Assembly: GCA_023701135.1 (NCBI GenBank)
Contig: JAMPXP010000009.1
Location: forward strand, 124,001 to 188,000
Direction: 5' to 3'
Source of the DNA: Desulfobacula sp.
Lineage (GTDB): Bacteria > Desulfobacterota > Desulfobacteria > Desulfobacterales > Desulfobacteraceae
Length of the DNA: 64,000 bases
Numbering within the stretch: position 1 is the first letter of the stretch; every line of letters starts with the position of its first letter. The notes beneath the pieces are model-generated. The model was not told the origin of the DNA, did not search any database, and worked only from the letters and a program-made list of their open reading frames with translations. A program made the translations under genes and the position numbers. Shown in pieces: positions 9,999 through 64,000 of the stretch.

Positions 9999-12900
9999 AT
10001 GACCGATGGGTCCAATAAAACCTGCCTCATAAGCGGGCTACCGGTGATTTCGAGACCGGACTGGGTATATACGGGCAAAAAAGACGGCTTCGGGGTCGAG
10101 GTTTCCCTCATCGGCGGAAATATTCTCCATATCAAAGCCCGGGGGTATGTGAATATTGACGACCAGATCAACAGCATCCGGCTCCAGGATCAGGTTGCCG
10201 GAACTGCCATCGGCGAAAATTCACCCTTTATTCAGATCCAGGACTGGGAAAATTTTAAAGGGGCTTCCAACGACGCCCGCCAATATTATATCAATTATCT
10301 GAAAAGCAATGACAGGGTCAGGGGCGTCATTTTCTGTCATCCCTCCTTTATGTTCAAAATGAGCATCAAACTGGGGAAGCGTTTGAATATGGTGCCTTTT
10401 CCCGTTTATATCGCCGATGATTATGCCGGGGCCATCAAAACAGCCCAAAAATTGATGGAAAAAATGAAGGGCCCTGATCCATCGGAACGGCTCGAAAAAA
10501 AAGATTTCCCCCTGCAATGGGTTTCCGATGGCCCGGATTTGGAGCCGCCGGGGCAAAGGATTTCCAGAGCGGATTGGAAATTTCAGCGGGACGGGTATAG
10601 CGTCTCCTTTGAAATTATCGGTGACGATATAATTTACCATGCGCCAAAAGGTGTCTTAAAGACAGACTATATTGATGAGATATTTTTCCTTTATGAGCGG
10701 GTCATCAGAGAAGCCGGATTTGATACCGGCAGGCCGTATTATAGAATTCTGAACTGGACGGATTTTGAACGCAGCAGTTTAAGGGCCAGGAAGCATTATC
10801 TTTGGAAAACCTCCGAAATTCAAAAACGCTATCCCTCATCCTTGTCCGTCATATACGGGATGAACCGTTTCATGGCCTTGATGATGAATATCAGTAAAGC
10901 GTTTCTCTCTTTCCGGGTTGCTGTCGCTAACGATATCCAGGAGGCCCTAAATCTAATTGAGCGGGAAAAGCGTGGAGGAGAAACACATACGGGTGGAAAA
11001 AGAGAAGAAGACCCGTATAGGCGGTTTGATATCCGGATGGAAACATTCAAGACCCAGTTGCTGAATTATATGGGAACCCTGGATTGGGACCAGAAGGGCA
11101 TCGGGGATCAGAACATCGATGACGGACACCCGTTTAAAGAGGTGTTTGAGGCCTTGTCCATCATCAAGGCCGATCTTGATGCCGTGTTTGAGGAAAGGGA
11201 CGGGGCTGAAAAAAAACTCCGCCAAAGCGAGGAAAGATATCGCAATATCCTTGAAAATATGGACGACGGATACTATGAGGTGGACCTGGAAGGGAACCTT
11301 CTTTTTTTTAATGAGACCCTTTCAAAATTGCTGGGGTATTCCCATGAAGAATTTTCCTCAATGAATTACAGCCGTCTCATTGATGAAATAACCGCAAAAA
11401 ATGTGTCGGAAATATTCAGAAAAGTCTATGAGACCGGTATTCCAAAGAGGGATCTCGGATATAAACTGATCAACAAAGAGGGCCGGAAATTATATGGAGA
11501 AATCTCCGTTTCCCTCCGGTATGACAGTGACGGAAAAATCTGCGGGTTCAGGGGGGTTGTCCGGGACAGGACCGAGAAAAAAGCCCTTGAGGATGAATTG
11601 ATCCGTCACCGGGACAGCCTTGAAAAAATGATTGTTCTCAGAACCCGGGAACTTGAAGAAGAGACCCTTCAGAAAAATTATGCAAAAAAGGTGAATTCTT
11701 CTATTTTTAATATTTCAACCGCCGTCAACACTGCTCAAAGCCTTGATGAATTATACCCCCTGATCCACCATTATCTCAATGAGATTGTGGAAATGCCCAA
11801 TTTTTATATCGGGATCTATGACCGGGACAAGGATTCCATCATCGTTCCCTATAACAAGGATCAATATGATGAGCATATTTTGGAAATTCCACAGATTTCA
11901 GCCCGGGCGTCCTTATCCAGTGAGGTTGTTTTCAACCAAACCCCCTTGTTTTTGAAAAAGCAGGAGCTTGTGGGCCGGATGAAAAACAAACAAATTATCG
12001 GCCATCTGCCTGAAAGCTGGATCGGCGTTCCATTGGTCATCCGGGACAGAGCCATCGGGCTTCTGTCCACGCAAAGCTATACGGATCAGGACCATTTCAG
12101 CGGCAAAGACCTTGAAGTCCTCATTTCGGTTTCAAACCAGGTCGCCCTTGCCATTGAAAGACGAGAGGCCTTAGATGAGCTTCATGAGCGGGAGAAAAAA
12201 TACAGAAGGCTCATTGAAACCACCTCGGCCGGCTACTGGCAGGCGGACGAGAATGATGTCACCATCGAGGTCAACCAGGCCTTCTGCGAAATGGTCGGGT
12301 ATGAAGCCCATGAGATTGTAGGGAAAGTCGCCTCTGCCTTTTTCGAGGAACAGTCGGTAAAAGAGTATGAAGAACCGATGGCCCGGAGTATCAAAACACC
12401 GGACAGAAGCTATGAGGCAACCTTTGTCAAAAAGAACGGGCAACGGCTGTATGCCAAGATTGACGCAACCACCCTCTTTGATGAAGAGGGCTCTTTCAAA
12501 GGATCCTTTGCCTTTATTACCGATATTTCAGACCGGATCAGATCCCAGGAGGAATTGCGCAGGGCCAAGGAAAAGGCGGAAGAAGCATCAAAGACAACAC
12601 AGGCCATCATGGAAAATCTCCAGGCCGGGGTGGTCCTGATTCATGCAGAAACCCGCAGAGTAGAAATGATCAACCCGGCTGCCGCTAAGATGCTCGGCAG
12701 AACACCGGGGGAGATTATCGGGAATCCATGCCGCCATTTTCTGTGCCCCAAAGAAGAGGGCCAATGCCCCGTCATGGATACTGGGTGTGGAATGGACAAA
12801 TCTGAACACTATCTGGTCAATATCCGGGGCGAAACCATTCCCATTTTGAAAACCGTGAACCCAGTGGTTTTAAACAGCGAGAATTTTCTCCTGGAAAGTT

Positions 12901-14573
12901 TTGTGGATATCACGGAACAGAAAAAGGCCGAGGCTGACCTGATGAATGAAACCTTCCGGGCCAATGCCCTGGCCAAGGCGGCCGAAGCCGCGAGCCAGGC
13001 CAAATCCGAATTTCTGGCCAATATGAGCCATGAAATCCGGACCCCCATCAACGGGGTGATAGGCATGGCTGAAATCCTCATGGACAGCCCTTTGGCAGAA
13101 GGTCAGAAAAAATATATTGAAACCATTCGTTCGGAAGCCGATTCCCTTTTAAACATTATCAATTCAGTCCTGGATTTCTCGAAAATCGAGGCCGGAAAAA
13201 TGGAGCTGGAATGCATAGACTTTGATGTGAGAAAGATTTTTGATGATCTTTCCGCCATATTCAGCATCCGGGCAAACCAAAAGGGACTCGAATTTTTCTC
13301 ATTTCTGGACCCGGAGATTCCTGCCGGTCTGAAAGGTGATCCGGGAAAACTCCGGCAGATTTTCATGAACCTTGCGGGAAATGCTGTCAAATTCACCAGC
13401 CAGGGTGGAATTTTCATCAGCGGGAAAAAAACCGGTGAAACAAATGATAACATCGGCATCCGGTTTGAAGTTAAAGACACGGGGATCGGAATTCCCTTTG
13501 AAAGCCATAACCGCATTTTTGACAGTTTTTCCCAGGCAGACGGGTCGACTACCCGCAAATATGGGGGAACAGGACTGGGGACCACCATTGCAAAACAATT
13601 GGTGGAGCTTATGGGAGGGCAAATCGGTCTTGAAAGCATAGAAGGAGAAGGATCAACCTTCTGGTTTACCATGGATTTCGGCATTGCAGGGGTTCTGGGG
13701 AAGCCTCCTCCACAGAAGCTTGAAGCGCGGGACTTGGTTGCACGACACTTTATGGAGGCGTCTCTCCAAAAAGGGGTTCGTATTCTGGTGGTTGAAGATT
13801 ATCCCACCAATCAGCAGGTTGTTCTGAAACATCTAACCGATGCAGGGTTTCATGCGGTCCTGGCGGAAAACGGGCTTCAGGCCGTTGAAAATTTTAAAAA
13901 AGCCCGGTTCGACCTGATCCTGATGGATATCCAAATGCCGGAAATGGATGGCTACGAGGCCACAGGCAAAATCCGGGAGATTGAGAAACGCCTTTCCAAA
14001 GCTTCGGCCCAACCCTTACGAACGCCCCTGATCGCCATGACGGCCCATGCCATGAAGGGATACAGGGAGAAATGCATTCTGGCCGATATGGATGATTACA
14101 TGACAAAGCCGATGAAAAGAAAAGATCTGATAGCCATGGTTGAAAAATGGACCTCGGCCCTCACCTCAATACCGGACTCCGGGCCCGAAAAACAAGTCCG
14201 GGATTTTTTTGAACCCGATTCCTTGCCCATGGATATGCCTAAGGCCCTGAAAGAATTCGACCATGACGAGAGTTTTTTAAATGAAGTGATCCATGAATTC
14301 CTGAACCATGTGGGGCAGCAGATCGGCATCATCCGCACCGCCGCTGCCGACCAGGACTTTAATACCCTTAAAAACCAGGGGCATGCCATCAAGGGCGGGG
14401 CTGCCAATTTGACGGCCATGAAATTGTCCGAAGCCGCATTCTCCCTTGAAAAAAAGGGAAAAGCACAAAATCCGGATCATCTGGAGGATGATGTGAACCG
14501 CCTGGTATCTGAATATGAGGCTCTTTGCCGGTATGTGGGCACTGGGATCGTTCAAAAACCCCGGATCAGTTGA
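9999..14573 (+). CDS. Soluble hybrid sensor histidine kinase (double N-terminal module, PAS-GAF-PAS-PAS-HisKA-HATPase-REC-HPt)
   Basis: 1524 residues with no membrane segment, so it senses cytoplasmic signals. The N terminus holds two related modules (about 25-165 and 185-325), each with a '[19 protein letters not shown]'-type strand pattern and an aromatic 'I.DW..F..S...AR..Y' segment. PAS domains lie at about 410-525, 730-850 and 865-975, and a GAF at about 565-720. The third PAS has a Cys cluster ('[17 protein letters not shown]'). HisKA follows with phospho-acceptor His1011 in 'NMSHEIRTP', HATPase with N-box '[10 protein letters not shown]' and '[13 protein letters not shown]', a receiver with Asp1310 in '[13 protein letters not shown]', and HPt with His1462 in '[11 protein letters not shown]'. 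This is a complete phosphorelay except for an output regulator, which must be elsewhere. Begins 17 bases after purN. Confidence 0.93.
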
Positions 14574-39914: not shown

Positions 39915-41033
39915 TTATATGCCGAGACTATAATAAACGATTGAAAAGATGCCGTCAAACACGGCAATGAGGACGATACCGGTGACAACGGCCCTTGTGG
40001 TGGATATGCCCACGGCGGAAGGTCCGCTCTCGGTCTGGTATCCCCGGATGCACCCGGCCGCGGCAATCAGGATGCCGAAGACAAAACATTTGACCAGGCC
40101 GCCGGTCAGATCCCCCCAGGACACAAAGGAGGCAATCTGGTCGTAATAGGAAATAAAGGGATAGCCCATGGAGGTGATGACAACGGCACCGCCCAGAATT
40201 CCCACAAGATTGGAAAACAGGGTCAGAAGGGGGGTGATAAAGGTGGCGGCAATAATTCTCGGGACAATGAGGAATTTCACCGGGTCAAGGCCCATGACCG
40301 TTAAGGCATCGATTTCTTCGTTGATGCGCATGGTCCCGATTTCCGCCGCAAAGGCCGAGGCTGACCGCCCGGCCAGAATAATGGCCGTCATGAGGGGTCC
40401 CAGTTCCCTGACCATGGCGATGCCGATGAGATTGGCCACATAGAGTTCGGCCCCGAACATCCGCATGGGGATGGCGGCCTGGAAGGCCATGACCAGGCCG
40501 ACGATGAAACTGATGAGGGCCACAATGGGCAGAGCGTCCACCCCGGCCCGCTCGGCCACGAGAAAGGTATCGGCCCAGCGGATTTTTTTTGGCCGCAAAA
40601 GGCTTTGAAAAAGGGCCAGGGTGATTTCTCCCGTATAGGTGATGAATTCCTTGGTTTCGGCCAGGGCATCCAGAAGCGATTTCCCCCGGCTCTCGACAAA
40701 GGAAAGGGTTTCGGGCCTTTGGGCTGAAAAGTCTGCCTGCCGGACCTCCTTTGCCATGTCCACCAGGGTTGAAAACCCGGGTTTCAACCGGGCTATGGAA
40801 AATTTTTCAATTCCCTTTTTTTCGGCCTCGTTTTCCAGAAGACAAAGAAAGGTGGCTCCGGCCGTGTCCATATAGTCAACGGCCTCAAGATCCAGGATCA
40901 GGCCCGGCGTAAGGGTTTTGGCGATGATCCGCAACCCTTCCTGCAGGAGGAGAGATGCGTTTTTTGCATCCAGCCTGCCGGTCAGTGAAAGAACCGTATT
41001 CCCGTCCTGTGTTGAAACAGCCCATGCTTTCAT
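39915..41033 (-). CDS. MlaE-like permease with N-terminal STAS domain
   Basis: 372 residues. Residues 1-100 form a STAS domain ('VLSLTGRLDAKNASLLLQEG', 'DLEAVDYMDTAGATFLCLLE'), comparable to MlaB fused to the permease. Residues 130-372 form the MlaE permease ('DALPIVALISFIVGLVMAFQ', 'RELGPLMTAIILAGRSASAF', 'EEIDALTVMGLDPVKFLIVP'). The fusion removes the need for a separate MlaB. First gene of the operon permease-ATPase-MCE-lipoprotein. Confidence 0.92.
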   Translation of the reverse strand: MKAWAVSTQDGNTVLSLTGRLDAKNASLLLQEGLRIIAKTLTPGLILDLEAVDYMDTAGATFLCLLENEAEKKGIEKFSIARLKPGFSTLVDMAKEVRQADFSAQRPETLSFVESRGKSLLDALAETKEFITYTGEITLALFQSLLRPKKIRWADTFLVAERAGVDALPIVALISFIVGLVMAFQAAIPMRMFGAELYVANLIGIAMVRELGPLMTAIILAGRSASAFAAEIGTMRINEEIDALTVMGLDPVKFLIVPRIIAATFITPLLTLFSNLVGILGGAVVITSMGYPFISYYDQIASFVSWGDLTGGLVKCFVFGILIAAAGCIRGYQTESGPSAVGISTTRAVVTGIVLIAVFDGIFSIVYYSLGI

Positions 41034-53501: not shown

Positions 53502-53545
53502 ATAACCGTTCATTCGATTGATTGGAGGAGGTCACAGGTCATCAT

Positions 53546-55198
53546 ATGAATCTTCAGTTTCACCCCGTTGCCGTTCTTTATTTTTCCTCCTGCGCTTTCG
53601 CCTTAGCCATGTTTTATATAAGCCGGCACCTGCCGGATGTCAGGGGTTCCCGGATCTGGGGGATTGTGATGCTGTTCTGCGCCATCTGGTCTGCCGGAGA
53701 AGGATTTCAGACCCTTGTGGCGGATTTGGACCTTAAGCTGTTTATCGTCCGGTTTTCCTACCTGGGAGTGGTCGGTACGGCGGTGTTCTGGTCTCTTTTT
53801 ATCGTGATTTACAGCAATAACGAACGCCTTCTGAATAACAGAGTGAAAATCATCCTGTCCATCCCGCCTGTGTTGACTTACCTGTCCATTCTGACGCTTC
53901 ACCTGCACCCGTATTTTTTTAAATCCGTCGAACTGGTGAATACCAACGGGTTTTCCAGCCTGTCCATGGTTTACGGGCCTGTTTTCTGGGCCTGGACGGT
54001 TTTTGCCTATGCCGCCATCTTCGGAAGCGGGGTTCTTCTGGTGCAGTCGGTCCTGCGGTTTCCCCATCATTTCCATGGCCAGATCTTTCTGCTGGCCATG
54101 GCCGGGTTGATGCCCCTGCTTTCCAATTTCCTGTTTATCACGGGCCATAATTTTTTAGGGCCTTTTTCTCCCACATCACCGGTCTTTGTCATCAGCGGCC
54201 TTCTGGTGGGTATCAATTTCCGCCGTAACCGGTTCCTGGATGTGATGCCGGTTGCCCATGACCTGGTGTTCCAGCATGTGAACAGCGGGGTCATTGTCCT
54301 GGATAACCGAGGTGTGGTGGTGGAAATGAACCCCAAGGCTGAAAAAATGACGGGCCGGGTGAAACAGGAGATGATCGGACAGCCGGTCCAAAATACCCTT
54401 GTCAAGCGATTCGGGCTGCCGGAAACGTTTTTTGACGAGATGAAGCACACAAATGAGGTCAAGGAGGGAGCAAAGGTGTATGAGCTGCAGCAGACCCCCC
54501 TGGTGGACCCGGCAGGCAGGCATACGGGGCGGATTATCCTGCTCTATGATATTACCGCACTCAAACAGTCTGAAGAAGAGCTGTCCGCGGCCAATGAAAT
54601 GCTTAAAAAAATGGCGGCCACGGACCCGCTGACATCGCTTTCCAACCGCCGGGATTTCTTTGGTCTTGCCCAAAGGGAGCTTGCCCGGGCCCAGCGCCGC
54701 CAGCACTGTTTCTCCCTGATCCTTCTGGACCTGGATAATTTTAAAACCGTTAACGATACCCTGGGGCACCCCCGCGGGGATATGGTGCTGCAGGAGACGG
54801 CCCGGTGCCTGAAGATGTATTCTCGCAGCGGGGATATCCTGGGACGTTACGGCGGAGATGAATTCATTGTCCTGGCCTATGAGGCGGATCTTCACGAGGC
54901 CATGGTGCTGGCCCGAAGATACTGTGAGATCATTCCGCCCCGCCTGGCGGCCCTGGGTCCCTTTGAGGTTCCCGTCACCCTCAGTATCGGGGTGGCCATG
55001 TATGATAAAGAAGAAAAGATTTCCCTTGATACTCTGCTGGACCGGGCCGATGCTGCCCTTTACGAATCAAAAAAAGGCGGAAGGAACCGGGTGTCTGTCT
55101 GGCGGTCCGGCGATGCCGGAAGCACGGGGCAAGATCATGCCCTTGCGCCGGCCCTGCTTTCGAAACTCAGTCCCGGGCCTCTTCTGATTGCGAAATAA
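53546..55198 (+). CDS. Membrane diguanylate cyclase (7TM-PAS-GGDEF)
   Basis: 550 residues from the ATG at 53546 (a TTG-start reading at 53522 includes the GGAGGAGG ribosome-site region). The first 225 residues contain seven hydrophobic segments, like the 7TM sensor modules of histidine kinases and cyclases. A PAS domain follows (about 240-350, 'SGVIVLDNRGVVVEMNPKAE'), then GGDEF (about 375-535) with 'ATDPLTSLSNRRDFFGLA' and the active site 'RYGGDEFIVLAYEADLHEA', so c-di-GMP synthesis is likely. No inhibitory RxxD is obvious. The gene converges on the DUF1499 gene with a 32-base overlap. Confidence 0.9.
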   Translation: MNLQFHPVAVLYFSSCAFALAMFYISRHLPDVRGSRIWGIVMLFCAIWSAGEGFQTLVADLDLKLFIVRFSYLGVVGTAVFWSLFIVIYSNNERLLNNRVKIILSIPPVLTYLSILTLHLHPYFFKSVELVNTNGFSSLSMVYGPVFWAWTVFAYAAIFGSGVLLVQSVLRFPHHFHGQIFLLAMAGLMPLLSNFLFITGHNFLGPFSPTSPVFVISGLLVGINFRRNRFLDVMPVAHDLVFQHVNSGVIVLDNRGVVVEMNPKAEKMTGRVKQEMIGQPVQNTLVKRFGLPETFFDEMKHTNEVKEGAKVYELQQTPLVDPAGRHTGRIILLYDITALKQSEEELSAANEMLKKMAATDPLTSLSNRRDFFGLAQRELARAQRRQHCFSLILLDLDNFKTVNDTLGHPRGDMVLQETARCLKMYSRSGDILGRYGGDEFIVLAYEADLHEAMVLARRYCEIIPPRLAALGPFEVPVTLSIGVAMYDKEEKISLDTLLDRADAALYESKKGGRNRVSVWRSGDAGSTGQDHALAPALLSKLSPGPLLIAK

Positions 55199-55619
55199 AC
55201 AACTCCCGCAAATGCTCTACCCTTTTCCGGTTGACGCCGAAATCACTATAGCCGAGCCGGGAGGCGGAGCGGACATGGATAATGGGTTCATCCGGGAAAA
55301 AGAACTCAAGGTCATCCACAAACCCCATGATCTTTGATTTGCACTCAATATGGAGATAATGGCCGGTTTCCGAAACGATGGTATTTCCTTGAATTGAGGC
55401 GATGATCTTTTTCAATCGTTCAAAAGCAGCCTCTTTCCCGCCCTGATACCGAAGGGGTGGTAAGCCATGCCCATCATCGGCCGCCTGGCTGCTGACGCAG
55501 TTGGGGCTGGAGGGGCAGTCCGCCAGCCGGCCGTTTTGCACACCTGAATTCTCAGGCCGCTGTCCTGCACAGGAAATAATCATAAGGCCTCCGATGATCA
55601 AAACACCGATTTGTTTCAT
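55167..55619 (-). CDS. DUF1499-domain lipoprotein
   Basis: About 150 residues from the ATG at 55619, which follows GGGAG; the frame is open to 55658. The N terminus is a lipoprotein signal ('VLIIGGLMIISCAG'). DUF1499 features: 'LADCPSSPNCVSSQAADDGH' with the conserved CPxSPNCVSS, and 'FVDDLEFFFPDEPIIHVRSAS' with the SRxG-type ending 'SRLGYSDFGVNRKRVEHLRE'. Function unknown. It is 35 bases downstream of dapB on the same strand. Confidence 0.85.
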   Translation of the reverse strand: MKQIGVLIIGGLMIISCAGQRPENSGVQNGRLADCPSSPNCVSSQAADDGHGLPPLRYQGGKEAAFERLKKIIASIQGNTIVSETGHYLHIECKSKIMGFVDDLEFFFPDEPIIHVRSASRLGYSDFGVNRKRVEHLRELFISQSEEARD

Positions 55620-55654
55620 GGCTTCTCCCAAAAGGCCGAGAAAGGACGAGAGGC

Positions 55655-56464
55655 TCATTTTTCGTCCAGATCCATGACCTGATCCAGGCCCCGGCGGAGC
55701 CCGGTAAAGGTATGGACCCTGCGGATGGCCAGCAGGGACCCGTCCACATAGGGCTGGGCGCTGGAGCCGGCATCATGGCGGAGGGTCAGCTTCTGGTCCG
55801 GCATGCCGAAGATGATTTCCAGGGAAAGGGTGTATCCGGGCAACCGGACGGAATGCACCTGGGACCCTGTCATGTCGGCGCCCCGTGTTTCCCTGACTCC
55901 CTGGGTCTGGTCCAGGGGGATGGTGAGCCTGGAAGGCCGGATTTTTGAAAGCCGGTGGGCCATTTCCCTTGCCGTTCCGCTGGGCGCATCTTTTTTGGCG
56001 TCATGGGCATAATCCATGATTTCCCACTGGGGGATATATTTGGCCGCCATTTCGGCAAATTTATGCAGCAGGACCACGGTGAGGGCAAAATTTCCAACGG
56101 CCAGCACACCCCGTTTTTTCTCCAGGGCCTTTGTATGGATGTCGGCATAATCTTCATCCGTCAGCCCCGAGGTTCCCACAACCACATGGACCCCCGCATC
56201 CAGGGCCGTCAATATGTTCTGTTTGGCAATCTCCGGTGCTGTATAATCCACCATGACATGGCAGCCCGCCAGGGCGTCCGGGCCGACTGATCCGGAGATG
56301 ATCAGGTCACATCCGTCCAGCCCAATTACATCCTGAAGGGTTTTCCCTTTGTGGGTCCTGGAAACGGCCCCGGCCATTTCCAGATCTTCTGTCTGATAAA
56401 TTCCTTTGCTCAGGGCTGATCCGGCCCAACCGGTGGCCCCTGCAACACAAACCTTTATGGTCAT
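55655..56464 (-). CDS. dapB: 4-hydroxy-tetrahydrodipicolinate reductase
   Basis: 269 residues. Reduces HTPA in the lysine/diaminopimelate pathway. The N-terminal nucleotide motif 'VCVAGATGWAGSALSKGI' and 'MVDYTAPEIAKQNILTALD', 'VVGTSGLTDED' are present. The catalytic region reads 'YAHDAKKDAPSGTAREMA': the DAPSGTA substrate loop and the Lys are kept, but the first His of the usual EHH pair is Ala here, as in a known divergent DapB clade. Preceded by a good promoter. Most likely functional; a related dehydrogenase of altered specificity cannot be excluded. Confidence 0.87.
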   Translation of the reverse strand: MTIKVCVAGATGWAGSALSKGIYQTEDLEMAGAVSRTHKGKTLQDVIGLDGCDLIISGSVGPDALAGCHVMVDYTAPEIAKQNILTALDAGVHVVVGTSGLTDEDYADIHTKALEKKRGVLAVGNFALTVVLLHKFAEMAAKYIPQWEIMDYAHDAKKDAPSGTAREMAHRLSKIRPSRLTIPLDQTQGVRETRGADMTGSQVHSVRLPGYTLSLEIIFGMPDQKLTLRHDAGSSAQPYVDGSLLAIRRVHTFTGLRRGLDQVMDLDEK

Positions 56465-57270: not shown

Positions 57271-57392
57271 GAAAGGGTCTCCTAACGAATTGTTGTGGTG
57301 TCGTCGTTATGGAGAATTTTGCAAATCCCGTGCCTTTATTTCCGGAAACCGGATTTTTTTAAATTTTTGTTGCAGGGCAGGGCCGGCGGATT

Positions 57393-57722
57393 CTATATGT
57401 CGGCGCAGGCCGAGGGGCAGTCCGGATAAATCCGGATAATGGCGCCGAACCCCGACATCTCAAATACATCCTTGACCATTTGGGTCAGGGAGGCCAGGGC
57501 AAGGCTGCCTTGATTTTCCTTGACTTTTTTGGCCACCATGAGAATGCTGCGAAGCCCTGCGCTGCTGATGTATTCCAGATTTGAAAAATCAATCACCAGA
57601 TGTTTTTCCGCCTCGGCCAGGGGAGTCATGGCCTCATCAAATTGGCCGGTGGTATGGGTATCCAGCCGTCCTGAAACGGAAACGATCATCACGGGGCCGT
57701 TTTTTTGGGTTTCTATCTTCAT
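57393..57722 (-). CDS. STAS-domain protein (anti-sigma factor antagonist type)
   Basis: 109 residues from the ATG at 57722, preceded by AAAGGAG (the frame is open further upstream inside the aminotransferase gene). A stand-alone STAS domain: 'GPVMIVSVSGRLDTHTTGQF', 'KHLVIDFSNLEYISSAGLRS' with the phosphorylatable Ser region SSAG, then 'ILMVAKKVKENQGSLALASL'. Such proteins bind RsbW-like kinases and switch partners when phosphorylated. A degenerate RsbW-like domain is encoded two genes upstream in the same operon, an obvious partner candidate. Located 10 bases after the aminotransferase gene. Confidence 0.88.
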   Translation of the reverse strand: MKIETQKNGPVMIVSVSGRLDTHTTGQFDEAMTPLAEAEKHLVIDFSNLEYISSAGLRSILMVAKKVKENQGSLALASLTQMVKDVFEMSGFGAIIRIYPDCPSACADI

Positions 57723-57732
57723 TTTTCTCCTT

Positions 57733-58854
57733 TTATTTTTGAGCGGTTGACAGCACTTCCCGGAAGGCATTGATAAAATCCGTCATCACCGGCGCCTGAA
57801 CCAGGGAAATCCTGATCCAGTTGGGGAAACGAAACCCGGTCATGGTCCGGACCATGACGCCGCGTTTCATGAGCATCCGGTAGAGCAGGGTGTCTGACAG
57901 GGGGACATGGACCATCATATAATTGCCCTGGTTTGACAGGTAGGGGATGCCCAGACCGTCAAAAAAGGGGCAGAGCAGTTCTCTGGCTTCTTTGACCATT
58001 TTCCGGGTGGCCAGGATAAAATCCCTATCATCGGTTATGGCGGCTGCGGCAGCCTGCTGGGCCGGGGTGTTCACGGAATAGACAATATGGGTGCGCCGAA
58101 CCATGTCCACCACATCCGGAGAACTGCACAAATAGCCGATGCGGAGGGCGGCCAGGGCATACATCTTGGAAAAGGTCCTGAAGGTGACCACATTGGGAAA
58201 GGTTTCCATCAACTGCATGGCATCCGGGTAATCCGGGTTGTCCACATATTCGCAATAGGCTTCGTCAATGACCACGATGCAGCGCTGGTCCACGGCTTCC
58301 AGGAAACCGGTCATGGTGTCCCTGTCCCAGTAAGTGCCGGTGGGGTTGTTGGGATTGCAGACAAAGATGATCTTGGTTTTGTCATCCACGGCATCCAGCA
58401 TGGCTTCGGGATCAAAGCCGAAATCCTTCAAAGGGATGAGCCTCGCCTCCACCCCGGAGAATTCGGCCACCCATTCATATACGGCAAAGGTTTTGTCCGC
58501 CGTGATGATATTGTCGCCCTTCACGCAAAAGGCCTTGATCACACTGGAGATGACCTCGCAGGAGCCGTTGCCCACAAGGAACTGGTCCTGGGTCTTATGA
58601 AATTTGGCGGCCAGCAGGTCCCTCAGATCAAAGCAGTCTCCATTGGGATATACCGGCACCATTTCCGCCTTGAACCCGTCAATGACCCGGTGAACCGCCG
58701 GAGGCGGGCCCAGGGCGTTTTCATTGTTGTTCAGCCGGTGAAGACGTTCAACCCCGAACAGCGACATGAGCACGCTGTCGGGCTTGCTGGGATAATAGGG
58801 TTCAAAATTCCGGATATGCCGGGGAACAATCCGGTCAAGCATGAGGGTGGACAT
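57733..58854 (-). CDS. HisC-like class I/II aminotransferase
   Basis: 373 residues. PLP fold-type I with 'LVGNGSCEVISSVIKAFCV', 'FVCNPNNPTGTYWDRDTMTG', 'CIVVIDEAYCEYV' and the PLP Lys in 'RTFSKMYALAALRIGYLCS'. Overall it resembles histidinol-phosphate aminotransferase, and is the right length. However, no his genes are present and the gene overlaps the GNAT-like gene by 20 bases inside an operon with STAS, transporter and oxidoreductase genes, so another amino-group acceptor, such as a specialised amino sugar, amino acid or phosphonate, is plausible. Confidence 0.85.
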   Translation of the reverse strand: MSTLMLDRIVPRHIRNFEPYYPSKPDSVLMSLFGVERLHRLNNNENALGPPPAVHRVIDGFKAEMVPVYPNGDCFDLRDLLAAKFHKTQDQFLVGNGSCEVISSVIKAFCVKGDNIITADKTFAVYEWVAEFSGVEARLIPLKDFGFDPEAMLDAVDDKTKIIFVCNPNNPTGTYWDRDTMTGFLEAVDQRCIVVIDEAYCEYVDNPDYPDAMQLMETFPNVVTFRTFSKMYALAALRIGYLCSSPDVVDMVRRTHIVYSVNTPAQQAAAAAITDDRDFILATRKMVKEARELLCPFFDGLGIPYLSNQGNYMMVHVPLSDTLLYRMLMKRGVMVRTMTGFRFPNWIRISLVQAPVMTDFINAFREVLSTAQK

Positions 58855-60142
58855 AGTGGAATATCACCTTATCGGACTCACCCGCATAGGGCAGAACATA
58901 GGCCGGTTCAAACCCGGTCTCCGTCAGATCCTTGCCCAGAGCGGCCTGCCAGCCGATGGAAAGGTCCATGGTAAAAAAGAGGTTGAGATAATTTTCATTG
59001 ACCAGCAATTGAATATGGCGCTGGATATTCTCCCGGATATCGGTTCCGTCCAGCATGGGCCGGATAAAGGCTTCCTGTTTGTCCGCACCCAGCCGAGTCC
59101 CCAGGAGGGACCGGGCCGGGCGGCCTCCGCCTGGATCCTTATACTCCCGAATGGTCCGGATGAGAAACAGGCGGTCATAGGTTCCCTTCAGAAAGGGCCC
59201 CAGAACCGGGTGGGCCCAGACAGGGCAGCCCATGTCCTCCCTCAGATGCCGGAACCAGAGGGTCCGGGTTTCCTTTTGTCCGTTGGATTGTTTGTAGGCC
59301 AAGGCGGCCAGGGGTTCGAAATTTCCCGGCGGAAGATCCGGGGTGGCGGCTCGGCTGTAAAGGGTAATGGCTTCGGTTCGGGCCACCTGGTTGATCAAAT
59401 GGTCCATCAGGAGCTGGGCGATGCCGTCACCCTTGGAAAACAGATAAGGGCCGTAAAATTCCACGGTCCGCCGGGAGGGGATCTGCCAGCAGATCATCCC
59501 GGCCGCGGTCCCGGCCTCATCCTTGACCAGGCCTGCATGGAAACGGCCTTGGGATATCCGGTCGATGATATTCCCCGGCGTCCGGAAGGATTTCGGATAC
59601 AGGGGTTCCGGATACAGGGCCATGGTCAGGGCGCAGGCATGGCTGATGTCGGCCGGATCAGAGCAGGCCTGCGCGCTTAAGGTTCCCCTCAGGGGGGTGG
59701 ACGGAACCTCGGCTTTTTCGATATCCGGGTAAATGATGTCCTGAAAAAGGGTAACGCCGAGGGTTCTGCCGCTCAGGGCGATGGAAAATCGGTCTGCCAC
59801 ACGGGATGCGAGAAGCAGTCCCATGTGGGCCATGCCCTGGTCCAGGTCTTGGGAAATTTCGCTTGCCGCCGTCAGGTTCATGGCCCAGAGGTCTTCGGGG
59901 CTGCTTTCAAACTGGAACAGGGCCGATACGCTTGAGGCTTCCCGGCTTAAGGTCAGGGTCAGCCGGGTTCCGGGAGCGGTTCTGGACAGATGGAGGATAA
60001 ATTCTTCCGCCGCCAGCGCCAGGCGCAGGGTCTTGCCGGGGTCCAGCCCCATGACCGGGGCTCCGGTTTCCACCACCCCCTGAACCAGGGGAATCCAGCA
60101 GATATCGGCCTGGAGGTCCAGAGATAAACGGGTCTCTGTCAT
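58835..60142 (-). CDS. Degenerate anti-sigma-kinase-like domain joined to a GNAT-like domain
   Basis: 435 residues from the ATG at 60142, which overlaps the preceding stop (ATGA) and follows GGAGG. Residues 1-145 resemble an RsbW-type HATPase_c_2 domain: 'LDPGKTLRLALAAEEFILHL' in the N-box position (the Asn is not evident) and 'QGMAHMGLLLASRVADRFSI' near the G box. Residues about 160-260 look like an acetyltransferase ('FHAGLVKDEAGTAAGMICWQ', 'YLFSKGDGIAQLLMDHLINQ' as a possible acetyl-CoA loop), followed by about 170 residues of unknown fold. This is an unusual combination; both assignments come from pattern reading only. Confidence 0.6.
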   Translation of the reverse strand: MTETRLSLDLQADICWIPLVQGVVETGAPVMGLDPGKTLRLALAAEEFILHLSRTAPGTRLTLTLSREASSVSALFQFESSPEDLWAMNLTAASEISQDLDQGMAHMGLLLASRVADRFSIALSGRTLGVTLFQDIIYPDIEKAEVPSTPLRGTLSAQACSDPADISHACALTMALYPEPLYPKSFRTPGNIIDRISQGRFHAGLVKDEAGTAAGMICWQIPSRRTVEFYGPYLFSKGDGIAQLLMDHLINQVARTEAITLYSRAATPDLPPGNFEPLAALAYKQSNGQKETRTLWFRHLREDMGCPVWAHPVLGPFLKGTYDRLFLIRTIREYKDPGGGRPARSLLGTRLGADKQEAFIRPMLDGTDIRENIQRHIQLLVNENYLNLFFTMDLSIGWQAALGKDLTETGFEPAYVLPYAGESDKVIFHYVHPHA

Positions 60143-61194
60143 TGGCCGGCCCTCCATTGGTTTTTCGGGTTCAGATCAAGGACCGCCTCCCAGTCTTTCC
60201 GGATCAAGGCCATGAGGGTTTTAGCCCGCTCAAGGTAAAGAATAATATCTTCCCATACAGGGGGGTCTAGTATTTTTTCCATGAGGATGCCGTCGCTGTC
60301 AAACCACCGGGGAAGGACCCCGCCGAAAAAATACCCGCTGCTTCTCAGGCGGTCCACGGCTTCTCCCACTGAAGGGTCTCCCGAAGAAAGCCAGACCTGG
60401 ATGACCCGGATGCCTTGTTGAAGGAGCTGGTCGTTTTCAGCCTGCATGACCCTAGGAAAATCCCGGCCCAGGGCCATTACCGCTACCCGGGCCACCTGGG
60501 CAAAGTCAAAGACCTGGGTGTCCAGCCGGGTTGATCGTTGAGATGAAAGGGGCTGGGCGGACAGGACAAACTGCCGCTCATCATCCAGGTCTTTATAAAA
60601 GACGGGGAAGAGTGTTTCATAGACTTTTGGGATATACACCGTGCAGGGGGCCGGCTTCAGCGTTTTAAAATTCATCAGGGTGGTGACCCGCCCCGTTGCC
60701 CCGGCTTCCTTGGCATAGGCGGCGGCCGGCATCAGGTTGACCTCAATGGCCCGGGTGATAAATCCCTGGTTATGGCCTAATTTTTGAGAAAAGGGATGGT
60801 TGCAGACCGGTTCGCCAAACACCTGTTCAACATCGGGCCGTTCCCGGCCCTTTGTCAGTCCATGAACCGTCATTTGGGAAAAGATGCCGTGGCCTCCCCG
60901 GTAATCTGCATGGACCAGGCCTGCCCCGGTTTCAAATACGTTTTTGCAGGGTGCGGAATTGAAAAGCGCGTTGTGGCCGACGATATCCCCTTTGGCGGTT
61001 TTGGCCACACTGGAGATGACCCGGCCGGACCGGTTTTCTTCGATGAGCAGATCCGGTTCCACATAGATCCGGACAGGATATCCCGCACCGTAAATGCCTA
61101 AAAAAAGCTGGGTAACACCCGGCGCATCCTTTGGGGTGAAAGATTCAACGGTCCATTCCTGGCCCGGTTCAATGGGGGAAATCGTTTGGGTCAT
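60139..61194 (-). CDS. GNAT-like protein, downstream copy of a tandem pair
   Basis: 351 residues, paralogous to the product of the adjacent upstream gene over nearly its whole length. A GNAT-type core is suggested by 'VISSVAKTAKGDIVGHNALF' and 'GAGLVHADYRGGHGIFSQMT', where RGGHGIF would be the acetyl-CoA pyrophosphate loop. Then come 'FGEPVCNHPFSQKLGHNQGF' and a conserved C-terminal 'SSGYFFGGVLPRWFDSDGIL'. It overlaps both neighbours by 4 bases. Substrate unknown; the HATPase/GNAT gene directly downstream may act with it. Confidence 0.68.
   Translation of the reverse strand: MTQTISPIEPGQEWTVESFTPKDAPGVTQLFLGIYGAGYPVRIYVEPDLLIEENRSGRVISSVAKTAKGDIVGHNALFNSAPCKNVFETGAGLVHADYRGGHGIFSQMTVHGLTKGRERPDVEQVFGEPVCNHPFSQKLGHNQGFITRAIEVNLMPAAAYAKEAGATGRVTTLMNFKTLKPAPCTVYIPKVYETLFPVFYKDLDDERQFVLSAQPLSSQRSTRLDTQVFDFAQVARVAVMALGRDFPRVMQAENDQLLQQGIRVIQVWLSSGDPSVGEAVDRLRSSGYFFGGVLPRWFDSDGILMEKILDPPVWEDIILYLERAKTLMALIRKDWEAVLDLNPKNQWRAGQ
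60274..60350. repeat. 77-base identical block, copy 1
   Basis: This block in the 3' part of the downstream GNAT-like gene is identical over 77 bases to 61326-61402 in its paralogue, while the flanking sequence is only similar. It encodes the region around 'RSSGYFFGGVLPRWFDSDGI'. Confidence 0.85.
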
Positions 61195-62234
61195 TGGCCG
61201 GTCCTCCCGTGTTTGTTTTTGTTCAGATTACGGACCGCTTCCCAGTCTTTCCGGATCAGGGCCATCAGGGTCTGGGCCCGGTCAAAACAAAGGTTTATAT
61301 CTTCCCATACGGGTTCGTCCACCAGTTTTTCCATGAGGATGCCGTCGCTGTCAAACCACCGGGGAAGGACCCCGCCGAAAAAATACCCGCTGCTTCTCAG
61401 GCTGTCCACGGCCTCTCCCAGGGAAGGGTCTCCCGAAGAAAGCCAGACCTGGATGACCCGGATGCCCTGTTGAAGGAGCCGGTCCTCTTCGGCCTTCATG
61501 ACCGTGGAAAAACCCTTGCACAGGGCCTTCACCGCCAATTTTGCCACCTGGGCAAAGTCAAAGATCCGGGTATCCAGCCGGGTGACCTGTTGAGATGAAA
61601 GGGGTTGGCCGGACAGGACAAATTGCCGTTCATCATCCAGGCCTTCATAAAAGACCGGGAAAATGGATTCATAGGCCTTTGGCACATGAACCGTGCAGGG
61701 CGAGGATTTGAGTGTGATGAAATCCATGGTGGTGGTGACCCGCCCTGCGGCCCAGGCTTCCTTGGCATAGGCGGCGGCCGGCATCAGGTTGACCTCAATG
61801 GCCCGGGTGACGAATCCCAGGCCCCGGCACATTTTCTGGGAAAAGGGATGGTTACAGACCGGTTCGCCGAATACCTGGTCCACATCGGGTCTTTCCCGGC
61901 CCAGGGCCAGACCGTGGGCCACCAATTGGGTAAAGATGCCGTGACCTCCCCGGTAATCCCTGTGGACCAGGCCTGCCCCGGATTCATAGACTTTTCGGCA
62001 GGGCGCCAGGTTGAAAATGGCATTATGGCCGACAATATCTCCCTTGGCGGTTTTGGCAACGCTGGAGATCACCCTTCCGGCCTGGTTTTCCCGGATGAGC
62101 AGATCCGGGTTCACATAGATCTGGATGGGATATTCCGAGCCATAGACGCCCAGAAAAAGATCGGCCACGCCCCGGGCATCTTCCGGGGTGAAGGATTCAA
62201 CGGTCCATTCCTGGCCCGGTTCAATGGGGATCAT
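61191..62234 (-). CDS. GNAT-like protein, upstream copy of a tandem pair
   Basis: 347 residues. Shares with the following gene 'EPGQEWTVESFTPEDARGVA', 'VISSVAKTAKGDIVGHNAIF', 'GAGLVHRDYRGGHGIFTQLV', 'FGEPVCNHPFSQKMCRGLGF' and the C-terminal half. The RGGHGIF loop suggests acetyl-CoA binding. Its start overlaps the MFS gene by 14 bases and its end overlaps the next copy by 4 bases. Two diverged but partly homogenised copies suggest subunits of a heteromer or related substrates. Confidence 0.68.
   Translation of the reverse strand: MIPIEPGQEWTVESFTPEDARGVADLFLGVYGSEYPIQIYVNPDLLIRENQAGRVISSVAKTAKGDIVGHNAIFNLAPCRKVYESGAGLVHRDYRGGHGIFTQLVAHGLALGRERPDVDQVFGEPVCNHPFSQKMCRGLGFVTRAIEVNLMPAAAYAKEAWAAGRVTTTMDFITLKSSPCTVHVPKAYESIFPVFYEGLDDERQFVLSGQPLSSQQVTRLDTRIFDFAQVAKLAVKALCKGFSTVMKAEEDRLLQQGIRVIQVWLSSGDPSLGEAVDSLRSSGYFFGGVLPRWFDSDGILMEKLVDEPVWEDINLCFDRAQTLMALIRKDWEAVRNLNKNKHGRTGQ
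61326..61402. repeat. 77-base identical block, copy 2
   Basis: Counterpart of 60274-60350 in the same orientation, 1052 bases apart, which is one gene length. Consistent with tandem duplication and recent gene conversion, or strong constraint at the DNA level. Confidence 0.85.
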
Positions 62235-63423
62235 TTTTTTGTAAACCTCCGATGAATATCAGCAAAACAGCACCCGACAGGCTGAATGCGGCGCATAAAT
62301 AAAACAGGGCGCCAAACCCCCATGGGGGAATGACGGCGGCCCCGATAAAGGGCCCGAAGAAAAAACCGGCCTGGAACATCTGCATGCCCAGATTGGTGTT
62401 CATGCTCTGGAATTCGGGCCGGGAGATGTCAAACATAAACCCGTTGAACACCGGCAGGGCAATTCCCCAGCAAAGGCCGAAGACTGTCCCGGTGATCAGG
62501 AACGGCCCAAGGGAAGCGGTTCCGGCCAAAAAAGCATAGGCCAGGGCCAGGCAGGCCAGGATGATCCCCAAAAGGCTGGCCTTGTTCATCCGGTCGAAAA
62601 ATGAGCCGCCGATGAGACGCACCAAAATTTCCCCGGCCGTGGCCAGGGTCAGGAAGATACCGGCATGGATAATTCCCCGGGCCTGGCCAAAGCTGCTGAG
62701 AAAGAAAAAAAGGACGGCATGGCCGCAATACATGAGGAGCATGGCCAGGAGCAGGAAAAGAACGCGTTTGTCCGTGAGGTTCTCCCGGATCTCCGGCCAG
62801 GTCAGGCGCTTATGGGTCCCGGCCCTGGCCGGGCCGGTTTTTACCGGCTTCAACAGGGGGAGCATGAAAAAGATCATGCCGGTCAGGACGGCAAACCCCA
62901 GAAGCACGCCCTGGAATCCGCCCAGAAGATGGTTCAGAAAGGGCAGGATGGAGGGAACCAGGGTATTGGGGATCAGGATGATGATGGAAAGGTAACCGAA
63001 AAATTGCGCGCTGCCCCCTTTGGGCACATATTGAACCATCAGGGCCGTGAGGGCCGAGCCCATGACGACAAAGGCCAGGCCGTGAAAGACCCGGACGGCC
63101 AGGAGACCGGCCAGGCTCTGGGTGAGGCTGTAACTGCCCAGGGCAACCATGATCATGGCGGTTCCGGCCGCCAGAAAAGGCCGGGCATTTCCGGCATTGA
63201 ACACCGGGCTGACCAGGGGCCGGATCAGGAGGGATACGGCGGCAAAGGTGCTGATGATGACGCCGGTCCATTGGGGATGGATGGAAATGGCTTCCAGATA
63301 ATCATAAAACTGGAAAAAAACCGAAATATTGGCATAGGTCAAAAACGTGACGGCCATGAGGACCATAAACTGCCGGTTCCAGAGGGAGGGTGGCCTGGGT
63401 GAGCTGTCTTTGGCGGGTGTCAT
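62221..63423 (-). CDS. MFS transporter
   Basis: About 400 residues from the ATG at 63423, which overlaps the stop of the preceding gene (ATGA); the frame is open to 63468. Twelve hydrophobic segments, in two six-helix halves separated by a basic loop ('KPVKTGPARAGTHKRLTWPE'). MFS motif A-like residues are seen at 'INRPLVSPVFN'-equivalent 'SLLIRPLVSPVFNAGNARPF' and 'LVRLIGGSFFDRMNKASLLG' in the second half. Likely drug/metabolite exporter type. Position in the operon suggests it moves the substrate or product of the neighbouring oxidoreductase and GNAT-like proteins. Confidence 0.88.
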   Translation of the reverse strand: MTPAKDSSPRPPSLWNRQFMVLMAVTFLTYANISVFFQFYDYLEAISIHPQWTGVIISTFAAVSLLIRPLVSPVFNAGNARPFLAAGTAMIMVALGSYSLTQSLAGLLAVRVFHGLAFVVMGSALTALMVQYVPKGGSAQFFGYLSIIILIPNTLVPSILPFLNHLLGGFQGVLLGFAVLTGMIFFMLPLLKPVKTGPARAGTHKRLTWPEIRENLTDKRVLFLLLAMLLMYCGHAVLFFFLSSFGQARGIIHAGIFLTLATAGEILVRLIGGSFFDRMNKASLLGIILACLALAYAFLAGTASLGPFLITGTVFGLCWGIALPVFNGFMFDISRPEFQSMNTNLGMQMFQAGFFFGPFIGAAVIPPWGFGALFYLCAAFSLSGAVLLIFIGGLQKNDPH

Positions 63424-64000
63424 ACAGCACCGGGTCCTTGTTTTAAGGGCTCTAAGGGGCCTTGGCAAAGGCGCAGGACAAGGTTGCCCGCCACCTGGCG
63501 GCGGTAGTCGGCGCCGGCCCGCACATCGCTGATGGGAGACACCTCTTCTCTGATCCGGGCTGCTGCAAGGATAAAACCGGCCGGGTCATCCATGGGGGTT
63601 CCCATGAGCCGCTTTTCCGTTTCAGGACTGGTCGCTATGGTTTTTCCCAGGCTCCCCCAGGCCAGGCGGACGGCCCGGATTTTCCTGTCCCCGGTCAGGC
63701 CGATAAGGGCCGCCATGCTCAAAATGGCAATGGACAGGGATTTTCGATGCCCCACTTTTTCAAAATGATGAAGGTCATAGGACGGCTGTTTGGGTATCCA
63801 AATTCGGTATAAAATTTCTTCCGGGTTTAGGCCGGTGGCCCCCGGGCCCGTGATGAACCGGGAAAGGGACATCCTCCGGGACCCGTTTTTTCCCGCCAGT
63901 TCCACCTGGGCGTCCAGAACATACAGGGGCGGAAGGCTGTCTCCGGCCGGGGAAGCCGTCATGATATTGCCGCCCAGGGTTCCCATATTGCGGATCTGGG
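63420..64000 (-). CDS. Molybdenum-hydroxylase FAD-binding subunit (CoxM/XdhB-like), partial
   Basis: The C-terminal 193 residues; the 5' end lies beyond the window, since the frame continues through 64000. 'QIRNMGTLGGNIMTASPAGD' is the FAD-binding signature of the medium subunit of xanthine/CO dehydrogenases, followed by 'SLPPLYVLDAQVELAG' and the CO_deh_flav_C domain ('EKVGHRKSLSIAILSMAALI', 'AWGSLGKTIATSPETEKRLM'). It passes electrons from the molybdenum subunit via Fe-S clusters to FAD. The ATG at 63986 is internal. The large and Fe-S subunit genes are expected upstream, outside the window. Confidence 0.88.
   Translation of the reverse strand, partial: QIRNMGTLGGNIMTASPAGDSLPPLYVLDAQVELAGKNGSRRMSLSRFITGPGATGLNPEEILYRIWIPKQPSYDLHHFEKVGHRKSLSIAILSMAALIGLTGDRKIRAVRLAWGSLGKTIATSPETEKRLMGTPMDDPAGFILAAARIREEVSPISDVRAGADYRRQVAGNLVLRLCQGPLEPLKQGPGAV

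Follow-up and report, generated by a model that had tools for sequence, protein, structure and literature searches.

The stretch analysed here, 64,000 nucleotides of a Desulfobacula sp. contig (JAMPXP010000009.1, positions 124,001 to 188,000; hereafter the window), ends inside an operon of nine minus-strand genes. From its first gene on, the operon encodes the molybdenum (Mo)-binding, [2Fe-2S] and flavin adenine dinucleotide (FAD) subunits of a molybdenum hydroxylase, an MFS transporter, GNAT-like proteins 2 and 1, a kinase-like/GNAT protein of 440 amino acids that we call HATP, a HisC-like aminotransferase and a STAS protein. These genes are one unit, conserved far beyond close relatives. The parts that hardly ever separate are HATP and the aminotransferase; the transporter type, the ring oxidase or deaminase, the GNAT copy number and the switch genes vary. 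The operon looks like an undescribed regulated small-molecule pathway. The reading we prefer, and hold tentatively at rather less than an even chance, is that partner-switch-linked GNAT-type proteins serve a small pathway that modifies and exports a compound, putatively an amino N-heterocycle. The RsbW-like domain joined to a GNAT module, beside enzymes and a transporter, provides a concrete candidate output for partner switches, and the operon points to a compound handled by sulfate-reducing and syntrophic anaerobes.

In the model we propose, an outside ligand would act on a SpoIIE phosphatase, and the dephosphorylated STAS protein would bind the RsbW-like domain of HATP. This binding would decide whether the GNAT and aminotransferase step is active. 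The substrate, an amino N-heterocyclic compound, would be transaminated, oxidised or deaminated and perhaps acylated by the enzymes, and the MFS or MATE transporter would export the modified compound.

The layout was read from the list of open reading frames (ORFs) and their translations, in a numbering whose position 1 is the first letter of the window and which continues unchanged outside it. Seven tightly packed minus-strand ORFs occupy the window from 57393 to its end: the STAS gene (57393-57722), the HisC-like gene (57733-58854), HATP (58835-60157, with its start placed at 60142), GNAT-like 1 (60139-61194), GNAT-like 2 (61191-62234), the MFS gene (62221-63423, the listed start being 63468 and the ATG lying at 63423) and the FAD subunit gene (63420 to 64000 and on to 64355; contig L009 7420-8355). 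With the starts 63423, 60142 and 57722, the overlaps of 4, 14, 4, 4 and 20 bases and the single gap of 10 that an earlier, sequence-only reading had described hold exactly; the first and the fourth of these overlaps follow from the starts chosen for the MFS gene and HATP. That reading had also proposed to look past 64000 for the other hydroxylase subunits. The contig runs 11,265 bases beyond the window, and the operon extends there on the same strand with the genes of the [2Fe-2S] subunit (64283-64759; L009 8283-8759; Fer2_2) and the Mo-binding subunit (64756-67095; L009 8756-11095; MoCoBD domains). Pfam confirmed four further assignments of that reading: the FAD subunit (FAD_binding_5 and CO_deh_flav_C), the MFS transporter (MFS_1, 90.5 bits), the class I/II aminotransferase (Aminotran_1_2, 187.3 bits) and the STAS protein (79.1 bits), the last of which also reaches 86.3 bits in the anti-sigma factor antagonist superfamily (cut-off 53.45). 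Upstream of the Mo gene, at distances of 90 to 247 bases and on its strand, are two promoter-like sites that each match 11/12 positions; the scan gave 12 such sites on both strands of the region, against 5.7 in shuffles. The 3' end of the operon is not fixed, because no minus-strand terminator-like site is listed in the 122 bases between the STAS gene and the next gene. Between these two genes, a short palindrome followed by seven T stands on the plus strand (57341-57353).

The conservation of the neighbourhood beyond close relatives, which the sequence-only reading had set as its test, was first of all apparent in a blind sample, for which 247 genomes of the phylum, among them that of the window, were searched with HATP alone. 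HATP was found in 27 of them, and the neighbour counts at these 27 loci are lower bounds because several contigs end early. A HisC-like gene lies within 10 kb of HATP at 26 of the 27 and directly downstream at 25; at L085 it is on the HATP strand after a gap of about 210 bases, and at L091 it was not found in the sequence stretch examined. Within the same distance stand genes for an MFS transporter (20/27), the FAD subunit (19/27), the Mo subunit (18/27), STAS (11/27), SpoIIE (11/27), RsbW (10/27) and an NMT1-type binding protein (7/27). A wider scan of named genomes with the GNAT-like family, covering the best 80 of 184 relatives (79 loci), is biased towards GNAT-like genes; ten loci from the window's own family were added to the pooled set. 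The pool holds 76 loci with HATP, 74 of them also with a HisC-like gene, and merging at HisC identities of at least 97% leaves 62 non-redundant loci. HATP adjoins the HisC-like gene in 61 of these 62, and a transporter (52 loci: 44 MFS, 8 MATE, none with both), a GNAT-like gene (50) and the Mo subunit gene (36) lie within 10 kb.

The neighbourhood thus recurs across many families within the phylum and also in a second one. The latter was reached through L144 (Pelotomaculum), which led to two further genomes of its phylum, where HATP, HisC-like and GNAT-like genes are consecutive and the Mo hydroxylase genes come next, with a MATE gene after them in L247. Among 299 sampled genomes of that phylum there were four matches: the genome of L144, two at E ~1e-59, one of which sits on a 2.9-Mb contig, and a marginal one (E 8.6e-4). 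These further matches make it less likely that the Pelotomaculum locus is mere contamination. The Competibacteraceae locus, the sole match among 398 genomes of its phylum sample, may be contamination, and HATP was not found in the Chitinivibrionia genome. Beside the cluster in L246 and L247 runs a series of ORFs that by eye resemble CRISPR-associated genes. A chance neighbourhood of unrelated genes would fit the patchy distribution of HATP, which occurs in 27/247 genomes of the phylum sample and in 12/86 (7/42 good ones) of the window's own family; the recurring order in many families and a second phylum leaves this explanation a negligible probability, and we reject it.

The predicted structures connect HATP with both partner switching and acetyltransferases. 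HATP has no Pfam match; its model (mean pLDDT 89.4) presents an RsbW/SpoIIAB fold at residues 9-142 (against 6m36: Z 13.8, root-mean-square deviation (rmsd) 2.1, 103 aligned) and a GNAT fold at residues 159-310 (against 2j8m: Z 14.5, rmsd 2.7, 143 aligned), that is, a degenerate RsbW-like domain followed by a GNAT-plus-tail module. In GNAT-like 1, residues 13-185 adopt the GNAT fold (model pLDDT 91.2; against 2j8m: Z 13.8, rmsd 2.7, 160 aligned) and precede a C-terminal domain. Of the three GNAT-like proteins suggested earlier, none, HATP included, has a Pfam GNAT match, but two carry the GNAT domain in their predicted structures, and the remaining one, GNAT-like 2, shares 76.5% protein identity with GNAT-like 1. 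At the DNA level the twin genes are 82.3% identical over 1041 bases; L117 has both copies and the near relative L231 one, and the twins are a lineage-level duplication rather than a defining pair. Four GNAT-like genes stand in tandem at L111 (7567-11790). The operon proteins share the fold of the GNAT acetyltransferases, seen in HATP and GNAT-like 1, but differ from them by the missing Pfam GNAT match, the extra C-terminal domain and their homology to HATPase-GNAT fusions. The acyl-CoA loop of GNAT acetyltransferases follows the pattern R/Q-x-x-G-x-G/A; by eye in the alignments, the GNAT-like proteins retain an Arg-Gly stretch of varying length and HATP retains none. The A2 profile gave six weak matches to arylalkylamine acetyltransferases in the PDB, restricted to the N-terminal part.

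Nine distant homologues were taken from weak GNAT-like matches with frames of about 500 amino acids, in genomes of the phylum (L210-L218). Each of the nine encodes a HATPase_c_2 domain that exceeds its Pfam cut-off, followed by a match to the GNAT-like profile; six also pass the Acetyltransf_1 cut-off. The N-box Asn is present in seven of them by eye and in five by a stricter pattern that also requires a following His, and STAS genes adjoin two (L210, L212). Because all nine are HATPase-GNAT fusions, the GNAT-like proteins are relatives of partner-switch proteins. HATP itself aligns colinearly with them, its residues 152-424 matching residues 6-296 of the GNAT-like profile end to end (E 2.2e-4), although at an hhalign probability of just 45, a figure to be counted among the reservations assembled below. 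RsbW-GNAT fusions thus seem to be the ancestors of both HATP and the GNAT-like proteins, in the direction that we infer. No description of HATPase_c_2-GNAT fusions of about 500 amino acids was found in the open-licence PubMed Central literature.

These relationships admit a bolder version of our model, to which we give a rather low probability. Partner switching would here take a widespread, so far undescribed form that has a GNAT protein as its output in place of a sigma factor; the HATPase-GNAT fusions would be the active form, and HATP would be a doubly degenerate, STAS-controlled partner of the aminotransferase and of the free GNAT enzymes, so that an outside ligand would set the output of a pathway making and exporting an N-heterocyclic amino compound. 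The same proteins could otherwise act as protein acetyltransferases which, under partner-switch control, turn the aminotransferase or the Mo hydroxylase on and off, the pathway being an ordinary metabolic one. The HATPase-GNAT fusions among their relatives, the GNAT-like proteins that stand alone elsewhere (for instance in L103, L104 and L110) and the protein acetyltransferases among the structural matches speak for this alternative; these matches are generic, however, no acetylation site or target is known, and we regard it as distinctly unlikely. Phosphinothricin acetyltransferases are also among the best structural matches of both GNAT domains and, together with the MFS or MATE transporter, they evoke a resistance unit in which the GNAT-like proteins would acetylate a toxic amine or amino acid, the pump would remove it, and the oxidoreductase and the aminotransferase would provide further detoxifying steps. 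The generic character of the matches applies here too, no canonical acyl-CoA loop was seen by eye in HATP, and detoxification needs no dedicated aminotransferase, yet one adjoins HATP in 61/62 loci; a resistance function is improbable on this evidence.

The model of a partner-switched pathway draws its regulatory part from the STAS protein and from the genes found at other loci. The STAS protein carries a Ser-Ser-Ala-Gly motif whose second Ser is retained in 26/26 distinct STAS sequences of these loci, the window's included. Elsewhere, genes for STAS, RsbW (HATPase_c_2), an NMT1-type binding protein and a dCache-HAMP-SpoIIE phosphatase adjoin the enzymes. An RsbW gene lies within 10 kb at 18/62 loci, the window's not among them, and the only RsbW-like domain in the window's operon is that of HATP, which lacks the N-box Asn; the SpoIIE-type phosphatase, absent from this operon, lies within 10 kb at 19/62. 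The window's genome contains 10 STAS and 11 SpoIIE matches. A second STAS match of the window is located at 40806-41024 on the minus strand, inside a frame of 382 amino acids. The likeness to the RsbU/SpoIIE - RsbV/SpoIIAA - RsbW/SpoIIAB systems therefore comprises a STAS protein with a conserved Ser, the RsbW fold in HATP, and RsbW and dCache-HAMP-SpoIIE genes beside STAS at other loci. The differences are the fusion of the RsbW-like domain of HATP to a GNAT module, the loss of its N-box Asn, and an operon shared with enzymes and a transporter; the recurrent neighbours listed include no recognised sigma factor. At 1e-8, the PDB relatives of the NMT1-type binding protein are 4nmy and, distantly, the pyrimidine-binding 3ix1. 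At L124, a neighbour on the minus strand (12286-13572) reads by eye like ThiC, possibly by chance, though the binding protein is of the NMT1/THI5 type.

Several observations, with the hhalign probability given above, weigh against the model. The N-box Asn is missing in 51/51 distinct HATP sequences, its position being taken by Tyr in 38 of them, by His in 10 and by Ser, Ala and Val once each, while both N-box Glu residues are retained in all 51. By eye in the alignment, HATP shows no canonical acyl-CoA loop either; with the kinase box lost and no such loop seen, GNAT catalysis may have been lost. A GNAT-like gene lies within 10 kb in just 15 of the 27 blind-sample loci, STAS, RsbW or SpoIIE genes in only 26 of the 62 pooled ones, and the occurrence of HATP in the window's own family is patchy, as noted above. 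In the window's operon, STAS is the only separate partner-switch gene; the NMT1-type binding protein has no closer match in this genome than one of 25% identity, and no riboswitch at gathering scores, nor any other ligand clue, was found in the window and 16 loci. The partner-switch control proposed from the sequence alone is accordingly retained in part: the STAS protein and the kinase-like domain are partner-switch parts, to which other loci add RsbW, SpoIIE and a solute-binding protein, but the degenerate N-box and the limited number of loci with switch genes count against it. The N-acylated amino compound suggested in the same reading is kept as a possible product.

The nature of the compound is suggested by the enzymes. 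The operon encodes MoCoBD, [2Fe-2S] and FAD subunits together, which places the enzyme in the molybdenum hydroxylase superfamily. The nearest PDB chain to the Mo subunit is nicotinate dehydrogenase 3hrd. No listed NCBIfam cut-off is reached by the Mo subunit; with the xanthine dehydrogenase equivalog models its best score is 486.5 bits, the cut-off being 783.65. In a hand alignment to the motif, Glu802 and Arg880 (in the bovine enzyme's numbering), which are typical of xanthine dehydrogenase, are replaced by Asp in 35/35 Mo subunits and by Leu in 34/35 and Met in 1/35, respectively. On the scores and these replacements we reject an identity as xanthine dehydrogenase. The enzyme resembles the xanthine/nicotinate dehydrogenase-type hydroxylases in its three subunits from one operon and its nearest PDB chain, but differs from them in the NCBIfam scores and in these residues. 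An adenosine/adenine-deaminase-type gene occurs at four loci, none of which yielded a Mo gene. The proteins of L095, L233 and L240 pass the adenosine deaminase equivalog cut-off (251.5, 261.2 and 267.7 against 216.55 bits), and the fourth, seen in L134 and L088 (one and the same contig), is truncated where the contig ends and reaches 157.6 bits. In the PDB, the L240 protein is matched best by 3ou8 and next by 3rys, both adenine deaminases. L233 is the sister of the window's locus in the HisC tree, on a starred branch, so that a deaminase locus and a Mo hydroxylase locus are near relatives. None of the 62 loci has both genes within 10 kb; a mutual exclusion is nevertheless weak, because there are just four deaminase loci and contigs end early. 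On the HisC tree the deaminase label requires 4 changes (2 forced by starred branches), no fewer than shuffled labels do. A flavin amine-oxidase family gene, the family having been tested in L122, follows the GNAT-like gene in L122, L123 and the partial L120, and no Mo gene was found within the sequence stretches examined of L122 and L123. An N-heterocyclic substrate is proposed because the Mo subunit is near nicotinate dehydrogenase, three of the deaminase-type proteins pass the adenosine deaminase cut-off and the binding protein has 3ix1 as a distant relative.

The same evidence could describe an operon for the breakdown or salvage of a purine or another N-heterocycle, in which the MFS protein would import the substrate, the Mo hydroxylase or the deaminase would start its breakdown, the aminotransferase would handle a later product and the partner switch would sense the substrate. 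The best NCBIfam score of the Mo subunit, although below cut-off, is to xanthine dehydrogenase subunit D, its nearest PDB relative is nicotinate dehydrogenase, deaminases occur at four loci, and XdhC-like and MocA-like ORFs, so named by eye, lie near some loci. The replacement of the residues typical of xanthine dehydrogenase in all 35 Mo subunits argues against such an operon, as does the efflux-type MATE family, which takes the place of MFS in 8/62 loci; no recurring amidohydrolase or ureide gene was noticed, no search having been aimed at such genes. We consider this alternative unlikely, though it deserves to be kept in mind. The MATE subfamily is above cut-off in L122, and the exchange of MFS for MATE at these 8 loci would favour export, as in the model we prefer; the MFS protein itself has no PDB relative at E 0.001.

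The aminotransferase, the almost constant partner of HATP, scores 273.9 bits and so falls just short of the TIGR01141 (HisC) cut-off of 276.55 bits. Two other genes of this genome exceed that cut-off, at 341.2 and 332.3 bits, and one of them adjoins ORFs that by eye look like those for cytidylate kinase and ribosomal protein S1. Because it overlaps the preceding gene by 20 bases, the operon's gene has no intergenic promoter region of its own. In view of this overlap with HATP and of the two other HisC genes, we reject a housekeeping his gene. With histidinol-phosphate aminotransferase HisC, the HisC-like proteins share the class I/II pyridoxal phosphate (PLP) fold family, the PLP Lys and family motifs being kept in 55/55 sequences; they differ by the score of the operon's protein and by forming a clade of their own, in a tree whose outgroup branches are very long.

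No description of the gene cluster or of an RsbW-GNAT output was recognised in searches of the open-licence PubMed Central literature. A review of STAS-only proteins reports that several partner-switch systems have unknown targets (PMC8256260), and the words acetyltransferase and GNAT appear nowhere in it.

Downstream of the operon, at 55167-56464 on the minus strand, a gene with DapB domains that resembles dihydrodipicolinate reductase shares 4 bases with a DUF1499 gene. At 53522-55198 lies an ORF of 558 amino acids which, by eye, looks like a membrane sensor containing PAS and GGDEF parts.

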